Source: Devosia sp. 66-14 (GTDB taxonomy: Bacteria > Pseudomonadota > Alphaproteobacteria > Rhizobiales > Devosiaceae). From it: 64,000 bases of DNA. The notes beneath the pieces were generated by a model, which worked only from the letters and a program-made list of their open reading frames with translations, searched no databases and had not been told where the DNA came from. Below are positions 16,971 through 24,048 of this stretch, in pieces. A program made the translations under genes and the position numbers. Location of the stretch: contig MKVB01000006.1 of NCBI GenBank assembly GCA_001899085.1, positions 627,857-691,856 on the forward strand. The letters are read 5' to 3'. Every line of letters starts with the position of its first letter. Position 1 is the stretch's first letter.

Positions 16971-17816
16971 ATGCTCAGTGCCGCCCCGACCACCGCTGCC
17001 GACGACCGCGAATTGCTGCGTTCGGCTGCCGTGACCGCGGGGATCATCGCCTCGGGATATTTCCGCAAGGACCTCAAGACCTGGACCAAGGAGAATGCCT
17101 CGCCCGTCAGCGAGGCGGATATCGTCCTCGACAAGTTCCTCAACTCGGCCCTGCTGACGGCCCGCCCCGACTATGGCTGGCTGAGCGAAGAAAGCGTCGA
17201 CAACCCGGATCGGCTGAGCCACCGGCGCGTCTTCGTGGTCGATCCGATCGACGGGACGCGCGGCTTCATCCGCGGCGACGACAGCTGGACGGTGTCGCTG
17301 GCCGTGGTCGAGGACGGCGTGGCGATCGCCGGCGTGGTCTACGCGCCGGTGCGCGACGAGATGTATGACGCCGCGATCGGCGACGGCGCCCGGCTCAACG
17401 GCAAGCCGCTGGCGCGGCAGCGCCACCCCGGCCGGACGGCGCCGCTGATCCCCGCTCCCGGTGCAGTACACCAGGAGTTGCAGGCCGCCGGGCTCGACTA
17501 CTCGCGTGGACCGTTCTTTCCTTCACTCGCCTACCAGCTGGTGCAGGTGGCCTGCGGAGGGCTCGACGCGGCGGTCAGCCGGCGCGGAGCGCGCGACTGG
17601 GATGTCGCGGGAGCTGCGTGCATCCTCAGCGAGGCCGGCGTGAGCTTTGAGGATGTCTGCATAGGTGCCTTGCGCTTCAATCGCCCGGAAACCCGGCATG
17701 GGGCGCTTGCGGCACTGTGCGAGCCTTCGCTAAAAGCGCCGCTACATGCTGCGCTGGTCAAGGTCTATGGCTGCCCGCAGCCGCAGGAAGTCGATCTGGA
17801 GCGTCTGAAGCCGTGA
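16971..17816 (+). CDS. Inositol monophosphatase family, CysQ-like 3'(2'),5'-bisphosphate nucleotidase
   Basis: 281-aa Mg-dependent phosphatase of the IMPase fold. Metal-binding motifs are intact: WLSEES (about residue 67), VVDPIDGTRGFIRG (about residue 88) and DWDVAGAACILSEAGV in the C-terminal half. CysQ-type members hydrolyse PAP from sulfate assimilation; inositol or sugar phosphates are alternatives. ATG 16971 follows GGAAACCC. Its stop overlaps the start of the DUF4170 gene (GTGA), so the two are translationally coupled, and waaA converges on the pair. Confidence 0.9.
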   Translation: MLSAAPTTAADDRELLRSAAVTAGIIASGYFRKDLKTWTKENASPVSEADIVLDKFLNSALLTARPDYGWLSEESVDNPDRLSHRRVFVVDPIDGTRGFIRGDDSWTVSLAVVEDGVAIAGVVYAPVRDEMYDAAIGDGARLNGKPLARQRHPGRTAPLIPAPGAVHQELQAAGLDYSRGPFFPSLAYQLVQVACGGLDAAVSRRGARDWDVAGAACILSEAGVSFEDVCIGALRFNRPETRHGALAALCEPSLKAPLHAALVKVYGCPQPQEVDLERLKP

Positions 17817-18061
17817 GCAAGCCCAACAAACCCGAGCCCAAGCAGCAGCTCTTGCACCTCGTCATCGGTGGCGAGGTGGAAAAGGGCGAAGACATCGTCT
17901 TCAAGGATCTCGATGCGGTCGACCTGGTCGGGGTCTACCCGAGCTACGCCGCTGCGCACGCGGTGTGGAAACAGAAGGCGCAGCTGACGGTCGACAATGC
18001 CGAGATGCGCTATTTCGTGGTGCACCTGCACCGCCTGCTGAACCCGGAAGACGACGAGTAG
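17813..18061 (+). CDS. DUF4170 protein
   Basis: 82-aa soluble protein of the DUF4170 family, found mainly in alphaproteobacteria and often beside LPS-core genes. The core is HLVIGGEVEKG (residues 15-25), LDAVDLVGVYPSYAAAHAVWK and MRYFVVHLHRLL. GTG start overlaps the upstream stop (GTGA), which fixes the start; the longer upstream frame is the phosphatase gene read in another phase. Function unknown. Confidence 0.88.
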   Translation: MSKPNKPEPKQQLLHLVIGGEVEKGEDIVFKDLDAVDLVGVYPSYAAAHAVWKQKAQLTVDNAEMRYFVVHLHRLLNPEDDE

Positions 18062-18067
18062 GGTCGC

Positions 18068-19324
18068 CTAGTTTCCGACCTCTGCAACAAGGCTCGTCGC
18101 CAGCGCGTCGAGCCGTGTCGTCGCCTGATCGGCCACGCTGCGGAAAGCCTCGATCATCTGCCGGCGGCGCGGCGCGTCCTCAAGCAACCCGACCAGGACC
18201 TGCGGCAGGTCGTCGGCAGAGCCGACCTGCACCGCGCAACCGATCGCCGACAGCGCCTGGTGCAGCGGTTTCTGGCGCTCGACATGAGGGCCGTAGACAC
18301 TGGCGGCTCCCAGATGCAGCGGCTCGCTGAGATCGTGCCCGCCGATCGGCGAGAAGGTTCCGCAAACGACCCCGATGGTGGCGCGCGCGTAGAGCTTTGA
18401 CAGCGTCCCCATTTCGTCGAGCCAGACCGGGCCCCCGGCCCCTGCGATGGCAGCCTCGCTGTCGACGATGGCCAGCTCGGCGCCGAAGCTGGCACTGAGC
18501 ACTTCACCGGGGATCTTGCCCGGATAGCGCGGAACCAGCACCAGCCTGATGTCCGGACGCCGGGCGCGGAGCTCGGCGATGGCGGGCGCAAGCCGTTCGA
18601 TCTCGTCGCGGTGGACATTGCCGAAGACGACGAGGGGTGGCGCATCCTTGCCGGCCGCAGGGGCGCTGCTGAGCGGCACCAGCTTGAGGTTGCCGATCAC
18701 CTCGATCCGCTCGCCGGGCACCCCGAGTTCGGCGTAGCGGGCGGCGATCGCCTCGTCCTGCGCATAGATGCGCTGCGCCTTGGCCAGGGTGCGGTCGGCG
18801 ACGGCGCGATTGCGTTGGTGCCGGGCGAAACTGCGGGGCGACATGGTGGCATTGACCACCACCACCGGCACGCCGGCCGCCTGCGCGGCAGCGAACTGGG
18901 CCGGCCAGAACTCGGACTCGACCAGCACCAGCAGATCGGGCCGCACCGTCTCGAGAATGCGCCGCTGCGCCTCCAGCGTATCGAGCGGCATGATGAAGCT
19001 CGAGGCGTCGCCGGCAATGGCGCGAACGCGCGCGTAGCCGGAATAAGTGGTGGCGGACAGGACGACCGACAGCGTCGGATCAAGCGCCAGCAGACGCTTT
19101 CGCAGCAGCTCGGCGACTTTCGATTCACCGGCGGAGACGGCGTGGATCCAGATGCGCCTGCCGGTCGCCGCCTGCGGCAGCGCCGGGTTGAGGCGCTTGC
19201 TGAACCAGGCCGCACCGCCCTCGTCGCTGTTCGAAAAGCGTGACAGCACGGCATAGTGCAGCCAGGACGCCGCCGTCACCAGCCCGCCATAAGCCTTCCA
19301 GCGAAACGGCACGGCTTGGGTCAC
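18068..19324 (-). CDS. waaA: Kdo transferase
   Basis: Inner-membrane glycosyltransferase (GT30) adding Kdo from CMP-Kdo to lipid IVA. About 418 aa. Family motifs: RIWIHAVSAGE (about residue 56), VLVESEFWPAQF, VFGNVHRDEIE, and GTFSPIGGHDLSEPLHLGA for nucleotide-sugar binding. The start is uncertain: GTG 19324 has GGAG about 12 nt upstream, while the frame stays open to 19384. It is divergent from the kdsD-kdsB-kdsA operon that makes its donor substrate. No lpxK follows it, as it often does in relatives. Confidence 0.93.
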   Translation of the reverse strand: MTQAVPFRWKAYGGLVTAASWLHYAVLSRFSNSDEGGAAWFSKRLNPALPQAATGRRIWIHAVSAGESKVAELLRKRLLALDPTLSVVLSATTYSGYARVRAIAGDASSFIMPLDTLEAQRRILETVRPDLLVLVESEFWPAQFAAAQAAGVPVVVVNATMSPRSFARHQRNRAVADRTLAKAQRIYAQDEAIAARYAELGVPGERIEVIGNLKLVPLSSAPAAGKDAPPLVVFGNVHRDEIERLAPAIAELRARRPDIRLVLVPRYPGKIPGEVLSASFGAELAIVDSEAAIAGAGGPVWLDEMGTLSKLYARATIGVVCGTFSPIGGHDLSEPLHLGAASVYGPHVERQKPLHQALSAIGCAVQVGSADDLPQVLVGLLEDAPRRRQMIEAFRSVADQATTRLDALATSLVAEVGN

Positions 19325-19421
19325 GCGAGGGGCTACTCCAACTGGCTTGTGCTGCTGACTAACCCTTTGGCCCGTGGCGCACAACCTTGCGAGTTCTTAG
19401 CGATTGCTGATAAGCCACGGC

Positions 19422-20447
19422 ATGTCCTCAGCACGGCGTGGGCCGGGTCCTCATTTGCGCTATCCCATTGCCAATGATGCGCGTCTGCAGCAGCTCGCTC
19501 TCGATGAGGCGCGCGCCGCGATCCGGCTGGAGGCCGAAGGGCTGGAAGCGCTGGCCGCCCGGCTCGACGGCGCCTTCGTGGCGCTGGTCGAGCTGATCCA
19601 GCGAGCCCCGGGCCGGGTCATTCTGTCCGGCGTCGGCAAGAGCGCACATATCGCGCGCAAGGTCGCGGCGACCCTGGCCTCGACCGGCACCCCGGCGCAG
19701 TTCGTGCATGGCGGTGACGCCAGCCACGGCGACCTGGGGATGATCACCACCGCGGACGTGGTGGTGATGTTCTCGAAATCCGGCGATACGGCCGAGCTGT
19801 CGGACCTCGCCAACTATTGCGTACGCTTCGATATTCCGCTGGCTTTGATCACCACGCGACCGGACTCCCGGTTGGGGCGCGCGGCCAATATCGTGGTCAG
19901 CCTGCCCGATGCGCGGGAAGCGTGCGAGATCACGGCGGCGCCGACAACGTCGACAACGATGATGGCCGCGCTGGGTGACGCGATGGCCGTGGTGCTGCTG
20001 CGGCGACGCGGCTTCCAGGCCGCCGATTTTCACGTCTTCCATCCGGGCGGCACGCTGGGCAGCGCGCTGCTGACGGTCGGCGAGGTGATGCACCGGGACG
20101 ACAAGCTGCCGCTGGTCGGGGCCGAGGCGAGCGTCGCCGCGGCGATCCTCGAGATGACGTCGAAGGGCTTTGGTTGCACCGGGGTGGTGGATGCATCGGG
20201 CGAGCTCATGGGCATCATCACCGATGGCGACCTGCGCCGCCACATGGCGGATGGCTTGCTGCAGCAGACCGCGGCAGCGGTGATGACCGCCAGTCCGCGC
20301 ACCATCGGCAGCGAGGCGCTGCTGAGCGAGGCGCTGCGGCAGATGACGGCGCTGACGCCACGGATCACTGCGATTTTCGCCATGGATGGACAGCGGCCGG
20401 TCGGCATCGTGCATGTGCACGACTGCCTGCGCGTCGGCCTTATCTGA
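19422..20447 (+). CDS. kdsD: D-arabinose 5-phosphate isomerase
   Basis: First enzyme of Kdo synthesis (Ru5P to A5P), KpsF/GutQ family. About 341 aa: SIS domain (GVGKSAHIARKVAATLASTG, then FSKSGDTAELSDL) followed by two CBS domains (VGEVMHRDDKLPLV and AAVMTASPRTIG). ATG 19422 is preferred; a TTG at 19404 in the same frame would add six residues. First gene of an operon with kdsB, a phosphatase, kdsA and an O-antigen ligase; kdsB starts 2 bp after its stop. Confidence 0.95.
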   Translation: MSSARRGPGPHLRYPIANDARLQQLALDEARAAIRLEAEGLEALAARLDGAFVALVELIQRAPGRVILSGVGKSAHIARKVAATLASTGTPAQFVHGGDASHGDLGMITTADVVVMFSKSGDTAELSDLANYCVRFDIPLALITTRPDSRLGRAANIVVSLPDAREACEITAAPTTSTTMMAALGDAMAVVLLRRRGFQAADFHVFHPGGTLGSALLTVGEVMHRDDKLPLVGAEASVAAAILEMTSKGFGCTGVVDASGELMGIITDGDLRRHMADGLLQQTAAAVMTASPRTIGSEALLSEALRQMTALTPRITAIFAMDGQRPVGIVHVHDCLRVGLI

Positions 20448-20448
20448 G

Positions 20449-21267
20449 GTGAGCGACCTCATCGTCATTCCGGCCCGGTATGGTTCGACCCGGTTGCCCG
20501 GCAAACCGCTGCATCCGATCGCCGGCCGGAAGCTGCTGGAGCGGGTCGCAGCGATCGCCGTGGCTGCGGCACGGCGGCTCGGCGATGCCGACGTGCTGGT
20601 GGCGACCGACGATGAGCGCATCCTGCTGGCGGCGCGCGAGCTCGGGCTCGAAGCCGTGATGACGGCGAGCCAGATCAGCTCGGGCTCGGGGCGAGCGCTG
20701 GCGGCGCTGCGCGCGACCGGACGCTCGGCGGAGCTGGTGGTGAACCTGCAGGGCGACGCGCCGTTCACCGCGCCCGAGCATATCGTCGAGATCGTGCGAA
20801 CGGCGCGGAGCTCCACGGCCGATGTGACCACGCCGGTGGTGCAACTCGACTGGGCCCGGCTCGATGCGCTGATCGCGCACAAGCAGACGACGCCGGCCAG
20901 CGGTACGACCTGCATCCGCGATGGCGCCGGCCGGGCGGTGTGGTTCTCCAAGGCCGTGCTGCCGTTCATGCGCAAGCCGGCCGAACTGCGCGCCGCCGGA
21001 CCGCTGTCGCCGGTGCTGCAGCATATCGGGCTCTACTGTTACCGGACGCCGGCGCTCGAAGCCTTCGAGGCGGCACCGCAATCGGAGTACGAGCGGCTCG
21101 AGGGGCTGGAGCAGTTGCGACTGATCGAGCTTGGGCTCGATATCCGGGCGGTGATCGTTCCGCCGGCACGGATCACCATGAGCGGCGTCGACAGCCCGGC
21201 TGACGTGGAGCGTGCCGAGCGACTGATCGGCGAGCACGGCGACCCGTTCGTCGACTGGCGATCATGA
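20449..21267 (+). CDS. kdsB: CMP-Kdo synthetase
   Basis: 272-aa cytidylyltransferase activating Kdo as CMP-Kdo. The N-terminal nucleotide-binding motif is canonical: LIVIPARYGSTRLPGKPL (residues 4-21). NLQGDAPF is the metal/CTP segment and HIGLYCYRTPALE is typical of KdsB. GTG 20449 starts 1 bp after the kdsD stop codon; the frame is open into kdsD but that part is another phase of kdsD. Its stop overlaps the next start (ATGA). Confidence 0.95.
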   Translation: MSDLIVIPARYGSTRLPGKPLHPIAGRKLLERVAAIAVAAARRLGDADVLVATDDERILLAARELGLEAVMTASQISSGSGRALAALRATGRSAELVVNLQGDAPFTAPEHIVEIVRTARSSTADVTTPVVQLDWARLDALIAHKQTTPASGTTCIRDGAGRAVWFSKAVLPFMRKPAELRAAGPLSPVLQHIGLYCYRTPALEAFEAAPQSEYERLEGLEQLRLIELGLDIRAVIVPPARITMSGVDSPADVERAERLIGEHGDPFVDWRS

Positions 21268-21899
21268 CCCGGTTGGTGATCGTCCGGCATGGCAACACCT
21301 TCGAGGCCGGGGAGCCGCCGCGCCGGATCGGTGCCCGCACCGACCTGCCGCTGACCGCGACGGGGGTCGCGCAAGCGGAGGCGCTGGCGCGGCATTTCGC
21401 GGCCAATGGCGTGACCTTCGACCGGGTCCTGAGTGGCGAGCTGCAGCGGACGCGCCGCACGGCCGACGCTATCGCCGCCGGCCAGCCGATCGAAACCGCC
21501 GCCTTCCTCACCGAGATCGACCATGGACCCGACGAGGGGCAGCCTGAAACCGCCGTTATCGAGCGGATCGGTAACGACGCCATCACGCTGTGGGAGACAC
21601 AGTGGATCGCGCCAGAAGGCTGGGAGGTTGGGGCGCAATGGCGCCTTGTGGCCTGGTGGGAGTTCGTGGCGCGTGCAGCCGAGACGCTGCCCCACGGAAC
21701 GATCCTTCTGGTGACCAGCAACGGCGCAGCACGGTTCGCTCTTGCGGCGATGGGCCTGAAGCCTGGGGAAAACCGTGCTGGTGTCAAATTCCGTACAGGA
21801 AGCTATGGTGTGGTAGAGGTCGGCGGCGGGGCCGACTTTCGACTACTTGGATGGGACATACGACCGGGCGAAATACCCGGCGATACAGGTTTGTTTTGA
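21264..21899 (+). CDS. Histidine phosphatase superfamily protein inside the Kdo operon
   Basis: 211-aa phosphoglycerate-mutase-like phosphatase. The catalytic RHG motif is present as VIVRHGNT (residues 5-12, phospho-His at residue 9), with [19 protein letters not shown] as the second conserved block. The closing segment [15 protein letters not shown] has Ser-Asn where many members carry a second catalytic His. It overlaps kdsB by ATGA and kdsA by TGATG, so it is coupled to Kdo synthesis. No HAD-type KdsC lies in the cluster, and Kdo-8-phosphate is the obvious candidate substrate. That assignment is inference from position only. Confidence 0.9.
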
Positions 21900-22747
21900 T
21901 GCAGCAGGTTTTTGTCGATGCGCCGAACGGGCAGCGCGTCGGGTTTGGTACTGATCTCCCGCTCGCCTTCATCCTTGGACCGTGCGTGATCGAAAGTCGC
22001 GATCACGCCTTGAAGACTGCGAGTCTGCTGGCCGAACTGGGCCGGCGGCGTGGCATTCCGCTGATCTACAAATCATCGTTCGACAAGGCCAACCGCACCA
22101 GTTCGAGGAGCTTTCGCGGCATCGGCATGGACGAGGCGCTGCGCATCTTCGAGGCGGTGAAAAGTGAAACCGGTCTCGCGGTCACCACCGACGTGCACGA
22201 GCGCGAGCAATGCGCGACGGTGGCCGAGGTGGTGGACATCCTGCAGATCCCGGCATTTCTCAGCCGGCAGACCGACCTGCTGGTCGCCGCTGCCGCCACC
22301 GGCCGAGTGGTCAATGTCAAGAAAGGGCAGTTCCTGGCACCCTGGGACATGAAGAACGTGGCCAACAAGCTCGACGGCGCCGGCGCTTCGGGCGTGCTGC
22401 TGACCGAGCGTGGGACCAGCTTCGGCTACAACACGCTGGTGGTCGATATGCGCGGCCTGCCGATCATGGCAGAGACCGGCAAGCCGGTGGTCTTCGACGC
22501 CACCCATTCGGTGCAGCAACCGGGTGGACGCGGCGACTCGTCGGGCGGTGAACGGCAATATGCGCCCGTGCTGGCGCGGGCGGCGGTGGCCGTCGGTATT
22601 GCCGGCGTGTTCATCGAAACGCACGAGGACCCCGACAACGCCCCGTCGGACGGCGCCAACATGATTCCGCTCACCGAGATCGACGATCTGGTGGGCGAAC
22701 TGCAGGCGCTCGACGCCATCGTCAAGGCTCGAGGCTCCGGGAGATGA
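21899..22747 (+). CDS. kdsA: Kdo-8-phosphate synthase
   Basis: 282-aa aldolase-type enzyme condensing PEP with A5P to Kdo-8-phosphate. Family motifs: [15 protein letters not shown] (about residue 24), [18 protein letters not shown] (about residue 56), [14 protein letters not shown] and [12 protein letters not shown]. The start ATG overlaps the upstream stop (TGATG). Its stop overlaps the O-antigen ligase start (ATGA). It has the [12 protein letters not shown] segment of KdsA rather than that of the related DAHP synthases. Confidence 0.97.
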
Positions 22748-24048
22748 CGCCGGCGGTCAGCGACGGCGCGCCCGCCTATATGCGCTGGGCCTGCCTGGCG
22801 ATGATCGTCTTCCTGTTTGCGTTGCCGTGTATCACGGGGCGGCTCACCACCTATTTCGTACTGCTGTTCGGCATCTTCGCCCTGCTTTCGCCATCGGTGA
22901 TCGCGGCCTTCCGGTCGCGCAGCAGCAACCCGATCGACCTGATGTTCGTGACCGCGGCAGCCTTGCCGTCGCTCGCCTTCCTGTTCACTTCGGAAGACCC
23001 GGGCGACCTGCTGTTCGCCTTCAACTTCGTTCCGCTGCTGCTGGCCCTGCCGATGCGCTGGCAGCTGCAGCGCTACGCGCGGCTCGACAGCGCGCAACTG
23101 ATCGGCCGGCTGTCGCTGGCGGGCGCCGGCATCGCGGTGATCGTCAGCGTGGTGCAGGTGCTGATCCTCGGCTACGAGCGAGCCGGCCCGCCGCTGATGA
23201 GCGCGTTCCACTTCGCCGACACCGCGATGCTGCTGGGGTTCGTTGCCCTGGTGGGAGTGTTCGCACCCGGCGCCGATCGGCGCTGGCTGTACCTGCTTGG
23301 ACCGGTGCTCGGTATCGTCGCGGCACTGCTGAGCGGCACGCGCGGCGCGCTGATCGCAGCACCGGTGCTCGGCTTCGTCGCACTGGCATTTGCGTTGGCG
23401 CTGGCGCCGGCCCGCAAGCGCACCATGACGCTCATCGTGGCGGTGAGCGTGGCGGTGGCAACCGTGGTGCTGGTGGTCGTGGCGACAAAACTGGGGTTCA
23501 ACCGCGCCGTCGACGGCTTCTCGGTTACGCAGGATGTGCTGGCAGGTGACGCCGTCGACCAATCCACCCGGGAGCGGCTGATCATGCTGTGGGGCGGCTA
23601 CCAGGCGTTCCTGCATGCGCCGCTGTTTGGCTATGGCTGGCCCGACATGGTGCCAGCGATCCTGCCCTACGTGCCCGGCAGCGAGATCGAGCGGATGCTG
23701 ACGTTCCGCCAGTTGCACAACGGTCTGCTGAGCTTTGCGGTCGGCGCCGGCATCCCCGGGGTGATCAGCTTCCTGATCCTGTCGGTGGCTCCGGTGATTG
23801 CGGCGCTGAAAACGCCGCGGGACGAACTGTTCGTGTCGCGGCTCTATCTGTCGGTGACGCTGTGCGCGGCCTACGCGGTGTTCCAGCTGACCATCATCAT
23901 GATCGGCTTCGAGTTCCATACCGTGCAGTACGCCTTCATGACGGTGGTTATTCTCGGCTTCGTCAGAGCCCCGGCGCGGGTCGCGCCCGCCGATCAATCG
24001 GTGCGCAGCAAGGCGCCGGTAAGCCAGGAAACGGCCAGCACGGCCTAG
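22744..24048 (+). CDS. O-antigen ligase / polymerase family membrane protein
   Basis: 434-aa polytopic membrane protein with about 10-12 helices, of the WaaL/Wzy (O-antigen ligase) family. A large loop before the last helices contains [19 protein letters not shown] and [19 protein letters not shown], which fit the Wzy_C domain pattern with its conserved His. Translationally coupled to kdsA (ATGA). The context supports attachment or polymerisation of surface polysaccharide on the LPS core, but ligase versus polymerase cannot be decided from sequence. Confidence 0.85.

Follow-up and report, generated by a model that had tools for sequence, protein, structure and literature searches.

How Devosia sp. 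66-14 removes the phosphate from Kdo-8-phosphate is the question raised by a compact gene cluster in the 64,000-nt stretch of contig MKVB01000006.1 (positions 627,857-691,856) that we analyzed; this whole stretch is called the window, and all coordinates are relative to it. Kdo is a core sugar of LPS and also of some capsules, and most genes needed to make it lie side by side here on the plus strand. The first is kdsD (19404..20447), which encodes a KpsF/GutQ-type arabinose-5-phosphate isomerase (TIGR00393, 265 bits against a cut-off of 204; under the cut-offs of both the KdsD and the GutQ equivalogs). It is followed after a 1-nt gap by kdsB (20449..21267, GTG start), the gene for CMP-Kdo synthetase (NF003952, 226 bits against a cut-off of 193; PF02348; under the cut-offs of the kdsB equivalogs TIGR00466 and NF003948). 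A 4-nt overlap, ATGA, leads into the gene of a 211-aa branch-1 histidine phosphatase (21264..21899), here called HP and regarded as the candidate Kdo-8-phosphate phosphatase, which in turn overlaps by 1 nt with kdsA (21899..22747), encoding Kdo-8-phosphate synthase (TIGR01362, 402 bits against a cut-off of 314) and represented by a single match in the genome. The last overlapping gene (22744..24048, plus strand, 4-nt overlap with kdsA) encodes a Wzy_C-domain protein of the O-antigen ligase/polymerase type (PF04932). The Kdo transferase gene waaA (18068..19384, minus strand) is divergent, and its product matches Glycos_transf_N (PF04413) with 166 bits against a cut-off of 23.9, below the cut-offs of the NCBIfam waaA equivalogs. 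The joins of 1-4 nt from kdsD to kdsA and the divergent waaA described in the first-pass annotation are thus borne out to the nucleotide. A DUF4170 gene adjoins waaA, after a CysQ-like gene of the inositol-monophosphatase family (16971-18061 for the two). The genome likewise has lpxC. As far as profile matches assign these genes, the phosphatase is the sole gap in the Kdo pathway, with the remaining steps represented by genes.

The known enzyme for this step, KdsC, appears to be missing from the genome as a whole. In the assembly, which comprises 13 contigs and is scored 100% complete, no protein passed the TIGR01670 cut-off (107; 106.95 bits), so that the genome-wide check for a KdsC-like HAD protein proposed earlier returned nothing above threshold. 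Four matches of 22-29 bits lie inside long proteins, and a KdsC elsewhere in the genome was rejected because their translations read as three P-type ATPases and one HAD/ATP-binding fusion; the same scan gave no match at HP. This lack is not peculiar to Devosia. Within its lineage (phylum Pseudomonadota, class Alphaproteobacteria, order Rhizobiales, family Devosiaceae), KdsC passed the cut-off in only 8 of 249 genomes of the order and 6 of 289 of the class, and 14 further order genomes gave KdsC-like matches under the cut-off, whereas kdsA is present in 219 of the 249. KdsC over the cut-off was found in none of the HP-carrying genomes examined, 16 from the order, 23 from the class and 49 from the named set (sets that may overlap), a result whose chance at the background rate of 14/538 is about 0.10 for 0/88, again with possibly overlapping sets. 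Mutual exclusion of HP and KdsC was therefore dropped as proof; since KdsC is rare in Alphaproteobacteria, its absence from genomes with HP is expected anyway and adds little.

Two HP-carrying genomes have sub-cut-off KdsC matches, G119 (62 bits) and G560 (102 bits), the latter reading as a cytidylyltransferase-HAD fusion. At locus L178, a cytidylyltransferase is joined to a HAD domain resembling KdsC and probably serves a nonulosonic acid; such fusions can mimic KdsC in profile searches, and several sub-cut-off matches of the order genomes, which lie in frames of about 400 codons, may be of this type. An exchange of KdsC into the position of HP was also looked for and not seen in 13 KdsC regions, taken from the 14 genomes over the cut-off with G234 omitted. 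A match to kdsB, kdsD or waaA lay within about 6 kb of KdsC in 6 of these 13 regions, the nearest about 1 kb away. Finally, about 196 of the 219 kdsA-carrying order genomes (219 less 16 with HP and 7 with KdsC) hold neither HP nor KdsC over the cut-off, a count in which distant HP members may be missed, as HP was sought in the order by a single-protein search rather than by a profile. Another solution to the same step thus exists elsewhere.

What kind of enzyme, then, is HP? Its product matches His_Phos_1 (PF00300) with 95 bits against a gathering cut-off of 21.7, and only histidine-phosphatase-type models were matched in Pfam and NCBIfam. The AlphaFold model (mean pLDDT 93.9) was matched by Foldseek with a probability of 1.00 to CobC, phosphoserine phosphatase and PhoE, and the best PDB matches also include glucosyl-3-phosphoglycerate phosphatase and a riboflavin HFP. 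HP falls under every listed cut-off of the CobC, dPGM and PspA equivalogs of NCBIfam; for the other 27 members of our family profile (A2, 28 HP sequences), only E-values against NCBIfam equivalogs are available, the best being 2.4e-19, and among the 22 NCBIfam families matched by the 28 aligned members there is no model dedicated to HP. By profile and predicted fold, HP is assigned to the histidine phosphatase superfamily, of which it forms a divergent branch.

The active site has both expected and unexpected parts. The RHG motif at residues 8-10 (codons at 21285..21293), with the phosphate-binding Arg and the nucleophile His, the second phosphate-binding Arg, R62 (21447..21449), and the likely proton donor E84 (21513..21515), all on the plus strand, show no variation across the 96 aligned rows (95 distinct sequences beyond residue 5), so HP has the RHG, second Arg and acidic donor of branch 1. 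The named loci among these rows were retrieved with patterns around RHGNTF and RSDLPL, by which conservation at the pattern sites, RHG included, is inflated; the SNG motif lies outside the patterns. The second pocket His of the superfamily is absent from HP. It is replaced by S152-N153-G154 (21717..21725, plus strand, likewise in 96 of 96 rows), part of SNGA at residues 152-155, and in alignments with Shigella CobC, PhoE and histidine phosphatases that retain the His, Ser152 falls at its position. This placement is based on alignments and on secondary structure rather than superposed coordinates; in the AlphaFold model, Ser152 sits between the strand 146-151 and the helix 153-162. Asn153 was considered as the His equivalent and rejected, as the alignments put Ser152 there. 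The first-pass annotation, which had HP keeping RHG with SNGA in place of the second catalytic His, therefore holds, and can be refined to Ser152 at the His position. SNG recurs in 21 of 23 other class members; one of the others has SSQG (L137) and the sequence of another ends after SSN (L139), which makes Ser the firmer residue than Asn. The replacement is a fixed feature of the family and not a local loss. A separate 77-bit relative (L144), with RHGET at its start, GSKG at the second-His position and no kdsB match, may be a further lineage in which the pocket His has disappeared.

Genomic context also bears on function. Of the 249 order genomes searched with HP, 21 had a match at E<=1e-10. 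In all 15 genomes other than that of Devosia sp. 66-14 with a best BLAST E<=3e-16, kdsB adjoins HP on the same strand, with 6-287 nt from the aligned kdsB end to the aligned HP start, while the six weaker matches (L026-L031) have no kdsB in their loci and keep the usual His at the second site. With profile A2, 24 of the 289 class genomes scored at least 119 bits, followed by a break to 78.4, and kdsB adjoins HP in 22 of the 23 besides Devosia sp. 66-14 (exception, L140). In 398 phylum genomes, nine matches at E<=1e-22 comprised our own, seven from the same class and one from the same order, the last with 91 bits, a normal His and no kdsB. The named-genome scan yielded 457 confirmed relatives, the closest being from Devosia (up to 90% identical); among the best 80 of the 457, 78 have kdsB upstream of HP in the same orientation (exceptions, L085 and L099). 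Wherever both genes occur in the named and class loci, they share a strand (100 of 100), and no kdsB-HP fusion was found in these 100. Between the stop of kdsB and the aligned start of HP lie no more than 73 nt in all 22 class loci and in 76 of the 78 named loci (from the best 80 of 457), and about 1.6-1.7 kb in the remaining two named loci. HP is thus an alphaproteobacterial family defined by its linkage to kdsB. One locus with kdsB and HP (L112, HP 39% identical) comes from a MAG titled Chlamydiia, which may reflect transfer or mis-binning.

The other partners are less constant. Among the best 80 of the 457 named loci, kdsB is found in 78, kdsD in 68, kdsA in 62 and waaA in 7; in the same set, kdsA lies upstream on the opposite strand in 52, downstream on the same strand in 6, downstream on the opposite strand in 3 and upstream on the same strand in 1, and is not seen in 18. 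With kdsA in four placements and kdsB-HP steady, the constant pair is kdsB-HP. Distance matrices of HP and KdsB, compared for 92 of the 100 loci having both, correlated with r=0.92 (best of 2000 permutations, 0.25, in a test that ignores shared ancestry), evidence of shared inheritance; over the same 67 loci, r was 0.89 for kdsB-kdsD and 0.84 for HP-kdsB, so this correlation does not single out HP. Among Devosia copies, dN/dS is 0.13-0.16 for HP and 0.09-0.18 for kdsB, and HP is under ordinary purifying selection.

HP also goes together with Kdo synthesis at the genome level, and the co-occurrence with kdsA and kdsB in genomes that have no KdsC above threshold, suggested earlier as a check, was indeed found. 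All 16 HP-carrying order genomes have kdsA, as do all 23 HP-carrying class genomes, against 18 of 24 class genomes with neither HP nor KdsC (two-sided Fisher p 0.02). This difference is modest: the 24 are a non-random sample that includes small or incomplete genomes, one of them (G268) shows a fragment resembling HP where a contig ends, and G311 was scored as having kdsA through split matches under the cut-off. Within the family, kdsA (E<=1e-30) is absent from all 9 other Devosiaceae genomes of the order draw, with two same-genus genomes left out, and lpxC occurs in 26 of 26 Devosiaceae genomes searched; the kdsA-less relatives may produce a lipid A that carries no Kdo. The operon is nevertheless present in six Devosia-titled loci (L036-L041), and may have been acquired or retained in one clade.

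The gene set also occurs on plasmids. On plasmid pLA5 of Novosphingobium pentaromativorans, a divergent kdsA, kdsD, kdsB, HP and a Capsule_synth gene form a block, and on pHbal01 of Hirschia baltica, kdsB adjoins HP, with a KpsF/GutQ gene about 9 kb off. The HP protein search of 72,556 plasmid records gave only four matches, the fourth being a Rhizobium protein annotated as phosphoglycerate mutase (31% identity over 75%). Three roseobacter plasmids, of Sagittula (L200), Roseivivax (L201) and Thalassovita (L202), bear cassettes in the order kdsD, kdsB, kdsA, in which the last two genes overlap or are spaced by 10 nt and no phosphatase gene lies between them (plasmids only). A linked dedicated enzyme is thus not obligatory, and these cassettes, together with the kdsA-carrying genomes that have neither KdsC nor HP, indicate that HP is one solution among several and that a less specific phosphatase could serve.

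Taken together, the linkage, the residue conservation, the predicted fold and the absence of KdsC over the cut-off make HP a candidate, and in our judgment the probable, dedicated Kdo-8-phosphate phosphatase replacing KdsC. The conserved linkage to kdsB makes this the most likely role of HP, and the variable placement of kdsA beside a steady kdsB-HP pair fits a step that feeds KdsB. In the proposed pathway, KdsD would supply arabinose-5-phosphate and KdsA Kdo-8-phosphate, from which HP, presumably in the cytosol, would take off the phosphate before KdsB forms CMP-Kdo and WaaA transfers the Kdo. In catalysis, H9 would attack the phosphate to give a phospho-His while R8 and R62 hold the phosphate; E84 may give a proton and then activate water, and the nearly invariant R25 and K175 may compensate for the missing charge or contact the carboxylate of Kdo. 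The first-pass annotation had already proposed this step for HP and is partly borne out: the kdsB linkage and the co-occurrence add to that proposal, but its appeal to the lack of KdsC loses force, since this lack is the rule. With somewhat less confidence, we favor the broader view that HP represents an unrecognised alphaproteobacterial family of dedicated Kdo-8-phosphate phosphatases, a non-orthologous replacement of KdsC that can move with Kdo/capsule cassettes on plasmids and works without the second pocket His by means of Ser-Asn and other fixed residues. What emerges is a known reaction that, by context, is assigned to another fold, one with an active site unlike that of the rest of its superfamily. 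In the openly accessible literature (titles, abstract starts and passages), no paper assigning the Kdo-8-phosphate phosphatase to a histidine phosphatase was found; the sole paper found with both kdsB and a histidine phosphatase places the latter, in its accessible text, in a vitamin B12 cluster (PMC4758666).

Other explanations have to be weighed against the dedicated enzyme. HP might act on another phosphate (arabinose-5-phosphate, CMP-Kdo breakdown, or a Kdo-glycolipid or capsule intermediate) or regulate, while an unlinked promiscuous phosphatase cleaves Kdo-8-phosphate. The roseobacter cassettes that manage without HP and the many kdsA-carrying order genomes that lack both genes are in line with this, as is the published guess of a different, possibly non-specific phosphatase for KdsC-less bacteria (PMC5615194, in the passages available). 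In addition, at least some Sphingomonadales loci have a capsule gene directly after HP, as judged from a downstream ORF cluster in 26 of the best 80 (of 457) named loci, with one member typed Capsule_synth. However, kdsB is the most constant partner, as expected if the product of HP is used by KdsB, and an arabinose-5-phosphate or CMP-Kdo phosphatase would probably be wasteful, so we regard such a role as unlikely.

The same gap could be filled by the CysQ-like gene (16971-17816), which is separated from waaA by a single gene and whose family comprises phosphatases of sugars and nucleotides. However, 9 of 9 sampled Devosiaceae members without kdsA retain a close copy (61-74% identity), so the gene does not track Kdo synthesis there; it was rejected as the phosphatase, and we give it very little chance. 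Equally implausible is a catalytically dead or scaffold HP, a pseudo-phosphatase that lost its pocket His. Ser does stand at the His position in every full-length aligned member, but dead enzymes usually lose the nucleophile, Arg and acid residues too, and here H9, both Arg and E84 are invariant throughout the alignment and purifying selection is ordinary.

HP as the dedicated enzyme can be compared with several known systems. KdsC (HAD, TIGR01670) and HP share the proposed reaction and the position in the pathway, but their folds and chemistries are unrelated: HAD chemistry is metal-dependent with an Asp nucleophile, whereas a phospho-His is proposed for HP. This suggests that a different fold took over the Kdo-8-phosphate step. 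According to the accessible passages of PMC5615194, a KdsC homologue is missing from divergent bacteria that do have the CMP-Kdo pathway, a different and possibly non-specific phosphatase being suggested for them and a HAD one for Rickettsia; the histidine phosphatase family of HP is not named in those passages. The same passages report KdsC to be non-essential in E. coli, which implies that another phosphatase can suffice. A pathway gap that is open in many bacteria, as far as that source describes it (PMC5615194), thus gains a concrete candidate gene in part of the Alphaproteobacteria, and the generic label "histidine phosphatase family protein" in the annotations of pLA5 and pHbal01 would be sharpened.

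A close parallel is provided by Aquifex aeolicus, in which, in the available part of PMC12051542, a histidine-family phosphatase fills the missing phosphatase step of the riboflavin pathway. This HFP (PDB 9mmh) has the same fold as the HP model (Foldseek E 2.9e-11, 17% identity), and the role proposed there for its E82 is equivalent to that suggested for E84 in HP (PMC12051542, accessible text). The substrates differ, and the Aquifex enzyme has the pocket His, H149, where HP has Ser152; the accessible text describes this second pocket His as characteristic of all superfamily members (PMC12051542). The HP family is therefore a natural case for how necessary the "universal" pocket His is. CobC (6nru, 6e4b) and PhoE (1h2e), which are among the best structural and profile matches, have the fold in common with HP, although HP reaches only 51.7 bits with the CobC model against a cut-off of 162.9; unlike both, HP has Ser-Asn in place of the pocket His and is linked to kdsB.
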